Source: a virus
Virus record (IMG/VR): IMGVR_UViG_3300013233_000375
Location: 1-23,007 of that record
DNA: 23,007 nt
Strand: one strand, 5' to 3'
Positions 15,921-20,778 of the stretch are shown piece after piece. A program made the position numbers and the translations under genes. Under the pieces are notes generated by a model. It did not search any database. It saw nothing but the letters and a program-made list of their open reading frames with translations, and had not been told where the DNA came from. How positions within the stretch are numbered: position 1 is the first letter of the stretch; every line of letters begins with the position of its first letter.

Positions 15921-16385
15921 TCACAGGATAGGAGTAATGACATGATTGAATGACTCGATCCACTCGGCTGCCGTGCCTCGTCCAGCGCTGGTGTTGTAAT
16001 GTTGTTTCCAATAGATGGAAAGCGCAGTTAGGTCATCAGCATCAGGAAGAGGTTCTGGACAGCGGTAATAGATGAGCCTGGCAATGGCAGTCTGATAGGG
16101 CAAGTTACCGATGAGGTCCAGTTCAGGCGCATTTGATGCCAGGGCCCTCACCTTGTTGGCCGTCTTCGGCCTATATGCCAGCCAGTGATACATCAAATCG
16201 GCATGGGTTGCAGGCTCTATCTGGTAAATGCCTCTCGCCGGGCCTCCGAGCTGTGCTAGATAGGTGAACAGGGATTCATGTGCCGCTGTACCCAGCATGA
16301 GCACCTCAGCGGCAGGAGAATAGAGTTCCAGCCTGTGTAGCACTGGTTTGAGGATCAGGTCGCGGAACTGCTTAACGTCCAGCAC
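15921..16385 (-). CDS. Lysozyme/transglycosylase-like protein, endolysin candidate
   Basis: 154 aa from the GTG at 16385, overlapping the P-like gene by 14 bp. The pattern AHES (Glu37), then QLGGPARGIYQIEPATHADL (45-64) resembles the catalytic Glu and the G-x-Y-Q core of the lysozyme-like/SLT superfamily. C-terminal DLTALSIYWKQHYNTSAG fits the same type of phage protein. There is no signal peptide, so it would need a holin. It stands between replication and packaging genes, where lambda keeps its lysis genes, while the spanins lie 9 kb downstream. Related phage proteins are often left unnamed, so endolysin activity is inferred. Confidence 0.6.
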   Translation of the reverse strand: MLDVKQFRDLILKPVLHRLELYSPAAEVLMLGTAAHESLFTYLAQLGGPARGIYQIEPATHADLMYHWLAYRPKTANKVRALASNAPELDLIGNLPYQTAIARLIYYRCPEPLPDADDLTALSIYWKQHYNTSAGRGTAAEWIESFNHVITPIL

Positions 16386-16737
16386 GAACTAGGATCTCCC
16401 TGCATTTGGCGATGTGCTCCAGGGCCGTCTGTTTGTCTGCTGGTGATAGCGGTGCTGGAGGTAAACAGGGCACTGACTTGTGAGGCGGAGCCTTGCGACA
16501 CACGGCTGCAAACTGCTGCAGCGTTGGGGGCATGGGATAATGCTTTTTGCATACATCAAGAGCCGCCTGCAGGCGGCGAGTGCTGTATGGGCCAAGCGTG
16601 ATAGACCATTCCTTTAGGGCGAGCTCGAGCAGCTCCTCGCTCTGGAACTGGCTGCTCCATAGGTTGCCATAGATGACAGAGAAGCGGGCAAAGAGCCTCT
16701 CCATGGTCTTGCGGGTGTGCACGGGCCTGTCAGTCAT
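16372..16737 (-). CDS. Lambda gpP-like helicase loader
   Basis: 121 aa from the ATG at 16737, overlapping the O-like stop. The pattern RLFARFSVIYGNLWSSQF, then WSITLGPYSTRRLQAALDVC, then YPMPPTLQQFAAVCRKA matches the conserved core of the lambda replication protein P family, which brings host DnaB to the O-bound origin. It is about half the length of lambda P (233 aa); the C-terminal part is absent or replaced by a short helix. Gene order O-P is conserved. Confidence 0.78.
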   Translation of the reverse strand: MTDRPVHTRKTMERLFARFSVIYGNLWSSQFQSEELLELALKEWSITLGPYSTRRLQAALDVCKKHYPMPPTLQQFAAVCRKAPPHKSVPCLPPAPLSPADKQTALEHIAKCREILVRAGR

Positions 16738-17530
16738 CCTCGAATGCTCCCTTGAGTTTCTCCGCGAGGAGTCGAGCGCCCCCCTTGCGAGATCGCCCGC
16801 GTTCTGCATGCGCACCTCCCGATGCTCGTTGATATGCCCTCGCACGGCCTAGCCACTTGCGGAACAGACGATGCCAGTCCTCCGCGGTCTGGCCCTGGTA
16901 ATGCGCCACGAACTCGGCTACATGCCGATGAGGATCTGGTAGACGATAGGCCTTTGCAAATTCGATGTCGGCGTGAGAGGGGACGAATGGATAGGGCAGC
17001 GGTGTCTTCGCGGATTGCAGAGTGGTTGATATATCTTCCCCCATATGATCTACTACATGAGGTAGGCCCCACCTTTGCAAAAACCCCGGCCCCACCTCCG
17101 GCCCTACCTCGCCGGTTGTGGCATCGCTTTTTGTTGTTTGGCCAACGGCTTGAGTAGAATTGTTGTCGGCCCCACCTCCGGCCCCTGCTGCGGCCCTACC
17201 TCGGCCCCACCTTTTCGGCGCCTGGAAATGCGCCGCCGCAAACGGGACCGAAAAAACGAGATCCAGATCACGGTGACGCTGAATGAGGCCCGCCTTGATG
17301 AGATGGTCGATGGCGATCCTGATGGCCTTAGTAGTAGGGGCACTTCCTCTGCGACCGTTGACAGTCGGCACATCACAATATTCCCGCATCATTTGCCGGC
17401 TGATGCGTCGCCGGATACCGACGATTCCTGTCTCGTGGTCCATGTATTGGCGCATGATCATCAGATAGATAATCCTCGCCAGGTGGGGAAGATCGATAAG
17501 TCGCTCGATTTCATCTTCCGACAGCCACAC
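16730..17530 (-). CDS. Replication initiator, O-like with DnaT-like C-terminus
   Basis: 266 aa from the GTG at 17530, directly after the upstream stop. Residues ~1-95 form a winged-helix domain (LARIIYLMIMRQYMDHETG; IRIAIDHLIKAGLIQRH) of the kind that binds origin iterons. A low-complexity Gly/Ala/Thr linker (~107-155) is encoded by the iteron DNA itself. The C-terminal part (~185-245) includes TAEDWHRLFRKWLGRAR, typical of the DnaT/helicase-loading C-terminal domain. As in lambda, the origin lies inside the initiator gene. Confidence 0.83.
   Translation of the reverse strand: MWLSEDEIERLIDLPHLARIIYLMIMRQYMDHETGIVGIRRRISRQMMREYCDVPTVNGRRGSAPTTKAIRIAIDHLIKAGLIQRHRDLDLVFSVPFAAAHFQAPKRWGRGRAAAGAGGGADNNSTQAVGQTTKSDATTGEVGPEVGPGFLQRWGLPHVVDHMGEDISTTLQSAKTPLPYPFVPSHADIEFAKAYRLPDPHRHVAEFVAHYQGQTAEDWHRLFRKWLGRARAYQRASGGAHAERGRSRKGGARLLAEKLKGAFEDD
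17065..17212. other. Replication origin: seven iterons inside the initiator gene
   Basis: GGCCCYACCT repeats, all in the same orientation, start at 17065, 17088, 17100, 17168, 17180 (8 of 10 bases), 17192 and 17203. Within clusters the spacing is 11-12 bp, about one helix turn. The two clusters are separated by an A/T-richer stretch (17110-17167) with a run of T and TTGTTGTTTGG. The layout matches lambda ori inside gene O. Confidence 0.82.
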
Positions 17531-17905
17531 TCAATCGAGGGCCCCCATCGCCCTGGCCAGCGCCCGGACTTCCCGCTGGGCACTCTCCCAGCGCTCCAGC
17601 AGTTCCGCGCGTTCATCATCCGGCGCCACCGGGATGATCTTGGCGTGAGCACGGCGCCCCAGGTAACTGATTGCGCATCGGCTGCCATTCTCGGCGGCCA
17701 TTTCAATCAGCTTGGCGACTTCATCCAGCGCGAGCTTTTCGGCCCGTTCCGAGTCCAGGCATCGCCGCAGATAGCGTGCCCCTTCTGCCATGCTTTTGGC
17801 CGGCCACAAGGCATATGCAACCGTTTTCGGCCCCCCGATGGCCATCACGTCAGCCTCCAATGCATCCTCTATCGAGTCGTGCCAGAGCGCGAGCTGGTCC
17901 ATCAT
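17531..17905 (-). CDS. Phage regulatory protein in the CII position
   Basis: 124 aa from the ATG at 17905 (a second ATG follows at 17902), with GGAAGG seven bases upstream. The upstream stop and this start share TGATG, so translation is coupled. The segment VMAIGGPKTVAYALWPAKSMAEGARYLRRCLDSERAEKLALDEV, seen here from ~22 to 65, resembles a family of proteobacterial phage proteins with a HTH-like N-terminal helix pair. C-terminal part is a coiled coil (RAELLERWESAQREVRALAR). Position between cro and the O gene is that of lambda cII. A DNA-binding regulator is likely; a CII-like role is inference. Confidence 0.7.
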   Translation of the reverse strand: MMDQLALWHDSIEDALEADVMAIGGPKTVAYALWPAKSMAEGARYLRRCLDSERAEKLALDEVAKLIEMAAENGSRCAISYLGRRAHAKIIPVAPDDERAELLERWESAQREVRALARAMGALD

Positions 17906-18153
17906 CACAACGCCTTCCAACTTTTGCCGGCCTGGGTTGTAGGCCGTTGTAAATCGGAGTGGCTACAAAAAAAGGGCGGGCGACCGGAGTCGCCCGAACT
18001 GTCAGGGGGAGGAAATGCCGGATTGAGCCGCCCCGGCAGGCGGAATTGTGGTGAACCCCAACATAGCCAGATGAGGCCCATCAAGATCATGCATGCCGAT
18101 ACGAAGACAATCAGCGCCAATATGAACAGAGGAGTCAACAGGACATCACGCAC
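17905..18153 (-). CDS. Small single-helix membrane protein, unknown
   Basis: 82 aa from the GTG at 18153, with GGAG seven bases upstream; the start overlaps the cro stop. One strong membrane segment at ~6-32 (FILALIVFVSACMILMGLIWLCW), then a Pro/Ser/Gly-rich tail. The 3' third of the frame includes a terminator-like hairpin and T-run (17967-17996), which is unusual for coding DNA. Its stop at 17905-17907 overlaps the next start (TGATG), supporting a real coupled gene. No family recognised. Confidence 0.55.
   Translation of the reverse strand: MRDVLLTPLFILALIVFVSACMILMGLIWLCWGSPQFRLPGRLNPAFPPPDSSGDSGRPPFFCSHSDLQRPTTQAGKSWKAL
17967..17996 (-). terminator. Terminator-like hairpin (tR1 position)
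   Basis: On the minus strand CGGGCGAC-TCCG-GTCGCCCG forms an eight-base stem, followed by CCC and seven T. It lies shortly after the Cro-like gene, like lambda tR1, but inside the reading frame of the small membrane protein. Confidence 0.75.
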
Positions 18154-18361
18154 AGGCCCGCTCCGATGCACGGCGTTTATCGAGAAGCAGCTCCACGGGT
18201 GTAATCACACCATCCACAGCCTCACTGACCGCCAGGGCCATGTCCCCGGGACAATATCCGCGGCTCCTCCATTGACTGATTGCTGCAGGGGTCCGCGATA
18301 CCTTGCGGGCCAACGCGATGCGTCCCCCGGCGGCCCTGATTGCTCGTTCCAGTGCGTTCAC
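18146..18361 (-). CDS. Cro-like repressor (YdaS type)
   Basis: 71 aa from the GTG at 18361. HTH: GGRIALARKVSRTPAAISQW at 12-31, the YdaS/Cro pattern (PF15943), then CPGDMALAVSEAVDGVITPVELLLD. A longer frame starting TTG at 18397 is rejected because that TTG is part of the promoter -35 box. The predicted transcript start is at or within a base or two of this GTG, so the mRNA may be leaderless. First gene of the lytic operon; expected to shut off the repressor promoter. Confidence 0.85.
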   Translation of the reverse strand: MNALERAIRAAGGRIALARKVSRTPAAISQWRSRGYCPGDMALAVSEAVDGVITPVELLLDKRRASERACA

Positions 18362-18368
18362 GCCCCTA

Positions 18369-18397
18369 AAGCTAGTATCACTAACTCCCGATGTCAA
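18369..18397 (-). promoter_or_regulatory. Lytic promoter PR with palindromic operator
   Basis: TTGACA (18392-18397, perfect -35) is 17 bases from TAGCTT (18369-18374, weak -10). The palindrome TAGT-ATC-ACTA (18373-18383, extended ends G and C at 18371 and 18385) overlaps the -10 and spacer, so bound repressor would block RNA polymerase. Confidence 0.7.
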
Positions 18398-18445: not shown

Positions 18446-18778
18446 ATGGGATTATCCGACCGCCTCAAAAAGGCCCGCCTGCGGGCCGGACTCAAACAAC
18501 AACAAGTGGCCGATCACCTGGGCGTGACGAGATCATCCGTGAGCCAATGGGAACAGGAACGGCACCGTTCAAAACCGACCTATCATCACCTCAAGGAATT
18601 GGCAGCCCTCTATGGGGTCAGCCTCGATGACCTCATTGGCCATCCATTATCGACAGGGATAGACGAAGAATCGGCGCCATACGGCACAATCCGGGCCCAG
18701 CTTGCTATGCTGACGGGTGAAGAACTCGAGGTCATCGAGAAACTCATACAGCTATTGCTGAATCGCAGGAGCCAGTGA
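18446..18778 (+). CDS. CI-like repressor, HTH only
   Basis: 110 aa from the ATG at 18446. An upstream in-frame ATG at 18410 would add 12 residues that do not fit the family. HTH_3/XRE domain at ~5-60: LKKARLRAGLKQQQVADHLG, then VTRSSVSQWEQ as recognition helix. The C-terminal ~45 residues form a helical region (LTGEELEVIEKLIQLLLNRR), likely for dimer formation. There is no S24 peptidase domain. It faces the Cro-like gene, so it is the likely lysogenic repressor. It has no ribosome site, in keeping with a leaderless transcript. Confidence 0.85.
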   Translation: MGLSDRLKKARLRAGLKQQQVADHLGVTRSSVSQWEQERHRSKPTYHHLKELAALYGVSLDDLIGHPLSTGIDEESAPYGTIRAQLAMLTGEELEVIEKLIQLLLNRRSQ

Positions 18779-19009: not shown

Positions 19010-19255
19010 ATGACGCACAAACAACTCGCCGCAATGGCCGTGGAAACGGCCCATTATTGTATCTATGCCTGGCGGTTGAACGCCTGGGCAGCCAAGGCCG
19101 CCCTGTCCGAGGGAGATGGCAGGAGCTGGTCCAGGCTCATGAATGAGGCCCGCGCCTGGAAACGCGACGCCCGCCACTGGGCCGATCGCGCCCGGGACAT
19201 GCTCTATCGGCAACCGATGCCCTGCGGTTCTTCGGGAAACGGGGGCCATTCATGA
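19010..19255 (+). CDS. Small Trp/Arg-rich protein, unknown
   Basis: 81 aa with a GGAGGG ribosome site six bases upstream of the ATG. It is helical and rich in Ala, Trp and Arg (YAWRLNAWAAKAALSE; ARAWKRDARHWADRARDM), compatible with a small nucleic-acid- or protein-binding helical bundle. The stop overlaps the start of the ParB-like gene (ATGA). First gene of the operon and directly behind the palindromic operator, so it or ParB may be the autoregulator. No family recognised. Confidence 0.65.
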   Translation: MTHKQLAAMAVETAHYCIYAWRLNAWAAKAALSEGDGRSWSRLMNEARAWKRDARHWADRARDMLYRQPMPCGSSGNGGHS

Positions 19256-20778
19256 GCCTCCCTGATCCCATCGAAGCTGCTCCCGATATCCCGCCTCGAG
19301 CCCTCCTGGAGCTGCCCATCGACCAGATTGCCCCGGATATGCAACAGCCCCGCCGGCACTTCGACCAGGAGGCCCTCCAGCTACTGGCCGACGATATCCG
19401 CGTGCGCGGCATACTCCAACCCATCGCCGTCCTGCCTACCGGCGAAAATCACTACACCATTTGCTACGGCGAGCGGCGCTGGCGCGCCGCGCAACTGGCC
19501 GGCCTCCAGACGATCCCCTGCCTCATCGATCGCCCGATCCCGGAGAAAATCGCAGAAGATGGAGGCATTTCCCGCGCCTTCGATCAGATCGCCGAGAATG
19601 TGCATCGCCAGAATCTCAACGCGATCGAATTGGGTACGTTCTTCAAGCGTCTGCGCGATTTGCACGATGTGCCTGTCGGCCAGATCCCGGAACTGTGCGC
19701 CCAGAACGGCCTGCCTATCTCCCGCAGTTATGTCAGCAACCTCATTCGCCTGACCGAGCTGCCGCAGTGGGCCCAGGACCTCATCCAGGCCGGTACGCTG
19801 ACCGCCGGCCATGGCAAGATCTTATGCATGGCCCGCGACCTCCCGGAGGTCATGCAAGACCTGCAAGATGAATTGACGGATCCCGACCTGGATCCAGACG
19901 ATTTGCCTACGGTCAAGGAACTCCAGGCATCGATTTATGGCGCCTGCCAGCGACACTACAACATCGTTCATGACTGGGTATTGCTGGAAGATGCCTTCGA
20001 TGAGAGGCGCGAATCCCTGCAAACCATTTCCCTGCCCAGTCCCTGGAATTCAGAACGTGTAGTGACATTCGCGCGCAACGTCGAGGCCTATCATGAACTG
20101 CTCGAACAGCTCCATGGAAAAAACGAGCCACAATCTGGCCAGCAGCACGACAACGGCGAAGACCTGGACCAGGACCCAGTGGCCACCGAGCCAGGCAATC
20201 CTTGGCCGGGATTCGACGAATACCGACAACTCCGAACTCTGAAGCAGCATCTGCGTGAATATCTGATAGAGCGGCTCATGGCAATCCTCGAACCGCGGCA
20301 ACTGCTCACCCTCACATTCTGGCTGGCGCTCGATGGTCCAGAATTTGACGATGAAGATCCCGATGTCGGCGATTGCACGAAGGGCTATGTCGATGTCGGC
20401 TGTGAAATCATGCAGGGTCTGAAACAGCGCCGTCCCGGGCAACTCATCGCGAAGTTCTCGACGGAAGCGGACCTGCAAATCCTGCTACAGGATCACCTGC
20501 CGGCAATCCTCTGCGAAGTGGAAACCGGCACCATCATCAGGCTCGCCCAGGATCTCGGCATCGGCATCGATGACTGGTACATCAACCGGGAAATACTGGA
20601 GACCCTCAGCTTGGAGCAATTCAACCAGATGATTGTTGCGGGAGATTCCCTGGCCCAATGTCCCGAAGCATGGCCAAGAGAACAGCGCCTCGCCTGGGCG
20701 GAAGAAAATGCCCAGGTCCTGCCACCGCCAGATGTGCTGCTCCAGTTGTGGGACAAAGAGGGAGAAATTGCAAGATGA
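19252..20778 (+). CDS. ParB-like protein with large unknown C-terminal region
   Basis: 508 aa. The N-terminal ParB/Srx domain is canonical: IAPDMQQPRRHFD at 26-38, DIRVRGILQPIAV at 48-60, the CTP-binding CYGERRWRAAQLAG at 71-84, and ENVHRQNLNAIE at 115-126. An HTH region follows: VGQIPELC with ISRSYVSNLIRLTELP at ~142-171 and GTLTAGHGK at 181-189. Residues ~200-508 are acidic and match no family I know. There is no ParA-type ATPase gene anywhere in the element. It may act as a CTP-dependent DNA clamp for control, silencing or partition using host factors; this is inference. Coupled by ATGA overlaps on both sides. Confidence 0.85.
   Translation: MSLPDPIEAAPDIPPRALLELPIDQIAPDMQQPRRHFDQEALQLLADDIRVRGILQPIAVLPTGENHYTICYGERRWRAAQLAGLQTIPCLIDRPIPEKIAEDGGISRAFDQIAENVHRQNLNAIELGTFFKRLRDLHDVPVGQIPELCAQNGLPISRSYVSNLIRLTELPQWAQDLIQAGTLTAGHGKILCMARDLPEVMQDLQDELTDPDLDPDDLPTVKELQASIYGACQRHYNIVHDWVLLEDAFDERRESLQTISLPSPWNSERVVTFARNVEAYHELLEQLHGKNEPQSGQQHDNGEDLDQDPVATEPGNPWPGFDEYRQLRTLKQHLREYLIERLMAILEPRQLLTLTFWLALDGPEFDDEDPDVGDCTKGYVDVGCEIMQGLKQRRPGQLIAKFSTEADLQILLQDHLPAILCEVETGTIIRLAQDLGIGIDDWYINREILETLSLEQFNQMIVAGDSLAQCPEAWPREQRLAWAEENAQVLPPPDVLLQLWDKEGEIAR

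Follow-up and report, generated by a model that had tools for sequence, protein, structure and literature searches.

A strong intrinsic terminator was found on the minus strand of the window, a 23,007-base viral record that was taken whole and is possibly a fragment of a phage, inside a small membrane-protein frame between cro and the replication genes. We propose, with a probability of about 0.48, that this terminator is an intrinsic attenuator of the early lytic operon, which would be partly suppressed by the ribosomes crossing it. It is the only strong terminator of the window and stands between cro and the other lytic genes, and no known antiterminator gene was found; with a single gate of this kind, how the phage passes it becomes a direct and testable question. 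If ribosomes do it, this would be a naturally occurring case of attenuation in the early operon of a phage. In addition, the terminator may have a function beyond stopping transcription, given its likeness to a family of regulatory RNAs.

The terminator and its operon

Scoring of all T tracts on both strands of the 23-kb window yielded three terminator candidates, among which the site at 17996-17967 is by far the strongest, with a hairpin of -16.7 kcal/mol and a U-tract tail score of 4.95 (Table 1). The minus-strand letters 18004-17964 read ...TGACAGTT CGGGCGAC TCCG GTCGCCCG CCC TTTTTTT GTAG..., confirming the 8-base stem and T7 that the original prediction had placed inside the membrane-protein frame. 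In dinucleotide shuffles of the window, equally strong hairpins occur at 0.017 per shuffled window, or 1 in 60. A simple consensus scan of the window revealed terminator-like sites overall at the chance rate (7 versus 7.5 expected). The significance lies in the strength of this single site and not in the number of sites. The GC-rich stem-loop together with the U tract, beyond chance, marks a predicted intrinsic terminator with an atypical 3-nt spacer; this CCC spacer, longer than usual, may weaken it. The hairpin, its strength, its position and the hydrophobic frame with its ribosome site were all computed from the letters, and computation likewise revealed neither a further strong terminator nor a recognisable antiterminator gene. 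An antiterminator RNA pairing upstream of the stem was considered and rejected, as the terminator hairpin remains the favoured fold. The exact terminator string was found nowhere else in viral contigs. A second, weaker terminator-like hairpin (GGCCCGCAGGCGGGCC TTTTT) is located at 18487-18472 on the minus strand, antisense within the start of the XRE repressor gene and upstream of cro.

The phage of the window is temperate. Its minus strand carries, in order, cro, the membrane frame, the 129-aa gene, the O-like and P-like genes and a lysozyme-like gene, followed by Nu1-like and large terminase genes, capsid and tail genes and an Rz-like spanin. The plus strand carries the XRE repressor, a zinc-ribbon protein, a ParB-like protein, an excisionase-like protein and an integrase. 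The ParB-like partition protein (19252-20778, plus strand) lies on the lysogenic strand beside the integrase and the excisionase-like gene. Cro, for which a shorter start is possible at GTG18361, is transcribed ahead of the terminator. The earlier statement that the site lies upstream of the lytic genes holds for all that comes after cro, from the 129-aa, O-like, P-like and lysozyme-like genes to terminase, capsid and Rz. The window scan revealed no second strong terminator in the replication and virion block, so that every lytic gene transcribed from the cro promoter lies behind this one gate.

Profile searches, covering the left-operon and other unassigned proteins, found no N-, Q- or NusG-like gene in the window. 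The absence of an N-like gene, already part of the original prediction, is thus right as far as such searches go; it is not proof, because N proteins are short and diverge fast. No nut site (boxA, boxB) was evident by eye in the sequence from cro to the hairpin. The 129-aa gene has its own Shine-Dalgarno sequence, GGAAGG, at 17918-17913, and the single-sequence fold of its product is of low confidence (pLDDT 65); phrog_24214 was found in none of 399 genomes of the phylum. Searches of viral contigs, phages and plasmids yielded no close homologue of the membrane frame, the 129-aa protein or cro. The TerL relatives in genome contigs belong to Alphaproteobacteria or Magnetococcales.

Table 1. Coordinates of the terminator, the neighbouring elements and the genes around them in the window
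Feature	Position	Strand	Remarks
Terminator stem-loop CGGGCGAC-UCCG-GUCGCCCG	17977..17996	-	8 pairs, 7 GC
U7 tract of terminator	17967..17973	-	after CCC spacer 17976-17974
UUUCCUCCC core, anti-Shine-Dalgarno-like	18007..18015	-	9/10 letters of ar8 core UUUCCUCCCU
Hairpin UGCCGGG-N9-UCCGGCA	18016..18038	-	abuts UUUCCUCCC core
Full-length sub-threshold match to Rfam RF00519 (suhB/mmgR)	17962..18044	-	24.6 bits, gathering score 41
Pro-Pro-Pro, codons 48-50, then Asp	18004..18012	-	from geometry, putative pause covering stem 5' arm
Small membrane-protein frame	17905..18153	-	82 codons, GTG18153 to TGA17907-17905; contains terminator
SD-like GGAG	18161..18164	-	7 nt before GTG18153, within cro end
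Cro-like regulator	18146..18397	-	PHROG 35 E 7e-13; Pfam YdaS_toxin family E 7e-9
129-aa protein	17531..17905	-	PHROG 24214, function not assigned; next gene after membrane frame
O-like replication protein	16730..17530	-	PHROG 13103
P-like helicase loader	16372..16845	-	PHROG 109
Divergent HTH (XRE/CI-type) repressor	18446..18778	+	profile match

Probable translation across the hairpin

The start of the membrane frame overlaps the end of cro, and its TGA overlaps the ATG17905 of the 129-aa gene (TGATG); the product would have 88 aa if the start is taken at GTG18171. It consists of a membrane segment and a Pro/Ser-rich tail. Its maximal 19-residue hydropathy of 2.94 ranks first among 159 window frames; of 1511 frames with 80-100 aa in related loci, 2 reach this value, and no shuffle out of 20,000 does. 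Based on the GGAG, the overlap with cro, the top hydrophobic segment and the TGATG junction, translation of the frame is probable, and its first half is probably translated. As the frame has no stop codon ahead of the hairpin, ribosomes starting at GTG18153 would run through it, barring a base shift. Within the 249-nt frame (GTG18153-TGA17905), the stem begins 157 nt in and spans codons 53-59 of 82, with 62 nt between the end of the U tract and the end of the frame. Frame 2 has a TGA at 18004, 8 nt ahead of the stem, and a TAG at 17965, right after the U tract; with a one-base shift in the C5 run, the membrane protein would end just before the terminator.

Two kinds of support for the frame were tried. 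Its codon score of -0.153 is no better than those of wrong frames (upper quartile from -0.145) and does not separate it from them; the codon signature is absent especially in the tail, and the neighbouring cro is low too (-0.087). Location within a frame was dismissed as evidence by a control over 168 related loci, where co-directional frames of at least 80 codons cross 24 of 77 comparably strong terminators (31%), and 19 of 47 comparable ones in GC-rich surroundings; lying inside a frame is therefore uninformative. Conservation gives no support either, since no homologue of the membrane frame of any kind was found in the collections searched.

In the proposed attenuator, polymerase from the cro promoter would make a short transcript of cro and the membrane-protein frame, mostly ending at 17967-17973 and carrying no stop codon, and the fraction of polymerase that passes would go on through all replication and virion genes. 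If a ribosome follows closely, it would cover the 5' arm of the hairpin, so that termination is partly suppressed. We infer in this scheme termination in vivo, translation of the frame to its end and an effect of ribosomes on read-through. When tR2 was tried at many positions, termination was efficient within the first ~100 bp of a coding sequence, almost fully repressed directly behind a gene and, through the ribosomes that follow, partly repressed farther along a coding sequence, to about 40% in a construct (Li et al., PMC4824070). The window hairpin lies 157 nt into a probably translated gene with no earlier stop, where coupling is just being reached, and therefore partial suppression by the ribosome is the expected default. 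Lambda tR2 placed in coding regions resembles the window site as an intrinsic terminator late in a frame and partly ribosome-repressed, which is predicted for the window, and differs in being an engineered construct (PMC4824070).

In a distant relative (L092), an intrinsic terminator occupies the corresponding point of the operon: it lies in the non-coding DNA that separates cro from O. Of the 30 relative clusters sharing the O gene, 29 have no strong terminator immediately ahead of O, and the strong terminators of those other clusters lie elsewhere, mostly downstream of the replication genes; with one cluster in 30, the place has a parallel and is not the rule. Lambda tR1 is Rho-dependent and is overcome by N at nut sites. 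The original prediction compared the site with tR1, and the two do share their operon place, as tR1/nutR with N also stands after cro and before the replication genes; however, the comparison is loose, with a Rho-dependent terminator on one side and an intrinsic one on the other, and profile searches of the window found no N-like gene. Translation-dependent attenuation at the membrane frame, as first suggested, is plausible: translation of the frame is probable and meets no stop ahead of the hairpin, and partial suppression is what the data of PMC4824070 predict. It does not stand as a shown regulator, in view of the uninformative in-frame position, the tail without codon signature, the absence of a homologue and the ar8-like RNA treated below. 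The points against the attenuator are the CCC spacer, the poor codon score, the 24 of 77 chance crossings, the lack of a homologue and the 29 of 30 clusters.

The same controls bear on an explanation in which the frame runs across the hairpin fortuitously, or the gene ends earlier, and an ordinary intergenic terminator ends the immediate-early transcript. The tail without coding signature and the 31% of comparable terminators crossed by chance frames agree with it, as does the TGA at 18004 just ahead of the stem, which after the one-base shift in the C5 run would give the usual layout of a gene followed by its terminator. However, the hydrophobic half and the TGATG junction favour one continuous frame as sequenced, with no sign of a base error, and this explanation appears unlikely. 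Given a frame that is probably translated, its translation rate might itself be the regulated signal in the style of the pyrBI leader, possibly tuned by a Pro-Pro-Pro-Asp pause. With Pro50 in its P site, a paused ribosome would extend to nt 162-164 and so occupy all of the 5' arm (nt 157-164); blocking five bases of the arm weakens the hairpin from -17.2 kcal/mol to above -4 kcal/mol. The assigned genes of this phage contain a single PPP in 4647 aa. Precedents are tR2 (PMC4824070) and pyrBI (pyrL) of E. coli, where an intrinsic terminator also lies in a short translated frame and close ribosomes prevent the hairpin (PMC4824070, PMC5021804). Ribosomes stalled upstream of the pyrL terminator raise termination, and polyproline stalls influence termination at its hairpin (Elgamal et al., PMC5021804). 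A candidate for the pyrBI-type pause element is the PPPD, which lies at a fitting place and whose sensing role would be hypothetical. By contrast, pyrL is a leader peptide with UTP-dependent pausing whereas the window frame is a membrane segment downstream of cro, the PPP was spotted after the fact, and a sensing element, a well-competing alternative structure and conservation were all absent, so that we consider such regulated translation quite improbable.

Termination at the site would leave a transcript that reaches codons 61-63 of 82 and lacks a stop codon in frame. Such a stop-less message might lead to tagging of the protein by tmRNA, and the protein would then build up only under overload of ribosome rescue, in the manner of ArfA and BrfA. 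In arfA and brfA, a Rho-independent terminator before the stop codon likewise results in a stop-less message; that of brfA lies within a 71-codon frame, and the terminator-like stem-loop of arfA is also cut by RNase III (PMC8012679, PMC6881298). However, these genes encode ribosome-rescue factors, to which the membrane frame is unrelated in sequence, with no family match, and a stop-less message follows from any terminator in a frame; regulation of this kind is very hard to credit.

Likeness to the ar8/MmgR RNAs

In the alphaproteobacterial ar8/MmgR family, a weak hairpin is followed by the 10-nt core UUUCCUCCCU and then by a Rho-independent terminator (PMC12559287). The window letters UUUCCUCCCC match this core at 9 of 10 positions, with a hairpin directly upstream and a Rho-independent terminator 10 nt away, true members having mostly 7 nt. 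The terminator might, as this layout would have it, be the 3' part of an ar8/MmgR-like sRNA that is either released from the cro/membrane-protein transcript or produced within it, composed of a 5' hairpin, a single-stranded anti-Shine-Dalgarno UUUCCUCCC and the terminator, a possibility we hold tentatively and with some doubt. Such an RNA would bind ribosome sites of host or phage messages, probably together with Hfq, while ending the early transcript. If this is true, operon control in a phage would be tied to a host sRNA family.

The likeness to ar8/MmgR/SisA (RF00519) covers the three elements, their order and their spacing range. The RF00519 match has an E value of 6.4e-5 for this family and this record and of 0.0032 for the 261-nt region and all families, and the SorX model aligns as well. 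Compared with 51 phage control records, the window scores best, the next best reaching 22.7 bits; that match and the other phage matches inspected align through a terminator, without UUUCCUCCC. TCCTCCC within 30 nt upstream is found at none of 129 other terminators, and none of the 164 phage loci used as controls (2.8 Mb of strands) has the whole layout with at most 1 mismatch, whereas this rule recovers 37 of 80 true ar8 loci among the matches listed. A core at this distance from the stem appears in 4 of 20,000 shuffles. In addition, the alphaproteobacterial or Magnetococcales affinity of the TerL relatives and the frequency of ar8 RNAs in phages are in line with this reading.

On the other side, the score of 24.6 bits is under the gathering score of 41, the E value rises to 0.28 when the whole window and every family are counted, and the phage controls have an inflated tail at low E. 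The linker differs, the conserved UARACUU is lost and the hairpin sequence of true members is not kept; moreover, the element lies inside a reading frame, no match for an own promoter was found upstream, and the motif was picked after Rfam had pointed to it. A first ar8 model (R1) was rejected because MAFFT misaligned the variable terminator, leaving only 4 spurious pairs. The head-only model (R2), built from 22 ar8 RNAs, fails to pick the window element, which scores 4.0 bits, at noise level. Since the element is below the Rfam cut-off and was missed by the head-only model, ar8 membership is not claimed: judged from its letters, the window element is ar8-like in layout and not a member.

ar8 RNAs and NusG-family genes in other phages

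The exact 21-nt ar8 core is present in at least 120 stretches of viral contigs, 80 of which were listed (L193-L272), and all 17 contigs tested exceed the Rfam cut-off with 48-77 bits; genuine ar8 RNAs are thus present in at least 80 viral contigs. Among the matches listed, 17 of the 80 ar8 loci have a NusG-family gene 96-407 nt upstream on the same strand (L193, L205, L210, L214, L215, L220, L232, L238, L244, L246, L249, L252, L253, L257, L259, L267 and L269), as identified by Pfam PF02357 and PHROG 6386 'transcription antiterminator'; any NusG-family gene is found in 2 of 164 control loci. Downstream of ar8, the NusG-linked loci examined carry terminase and, in some cases, HNH and portal genes. 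A conserved CATAGGNTGTGCGG(TAG) lies 30-60 nt upstream of the ar8 core in the NusG-linked loci, and this region is possibly a late promoter and/or a recruitment site of the NusG-like protein. Between gene and RNA, CATAGG occurs in 14 of 17 NusG-linked loci versus 2 of 63 others, and the ops-like GCGGTAG in 9 of 17 versus 4 of 63, both among the matches listed; we take GCGGTAG to resemble the RfaH ops site. At the window element, a NusG-like gene, CATAGG (by eye) and the ops-like motif are absent.

The NusG-ar8-terminase arrangement occupies the same place as lambda Q-pR'-6S-tR', with lambda's late terminator, and the NusG-ar8 pair looks like a late-operon antitermination module. It makes the question of the origin of ar8 testable. 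No paper on the NusG-ar8 phage arrangement was found in the literature searched, which has few subscription journals, and the arrangement looks more novel than the original terminator finding. A broader proposal would join both: the window element as a divergent phage-borne ar8/MmgR relative nested in a translated gene, serving as coding sequence, anti-Shine-Dalgarno regulator and operon gate, and ar8 RNAs more widely as phage leader-terminator modules, in many phages beside a NusG-like antiterminator in place of lambda pR'-6S-tR', from which MmgR and SisA may derive. We consider this joint proposal unlikely as a whole.

Some ar8 cores adjoin capsid or other virion genes instead of NusG. Two loci from the TerL search (L069 and L080, at about 6.1-6.95 kb) have a NusG-like gene with a strong intrinsic terminator directly behind it, ahead of TerL, and no ar8 core. 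In one ar8 phage, positions 3208-3340 of L252 correspond to the Rfam phage diversity-generating-retroelement RNA.
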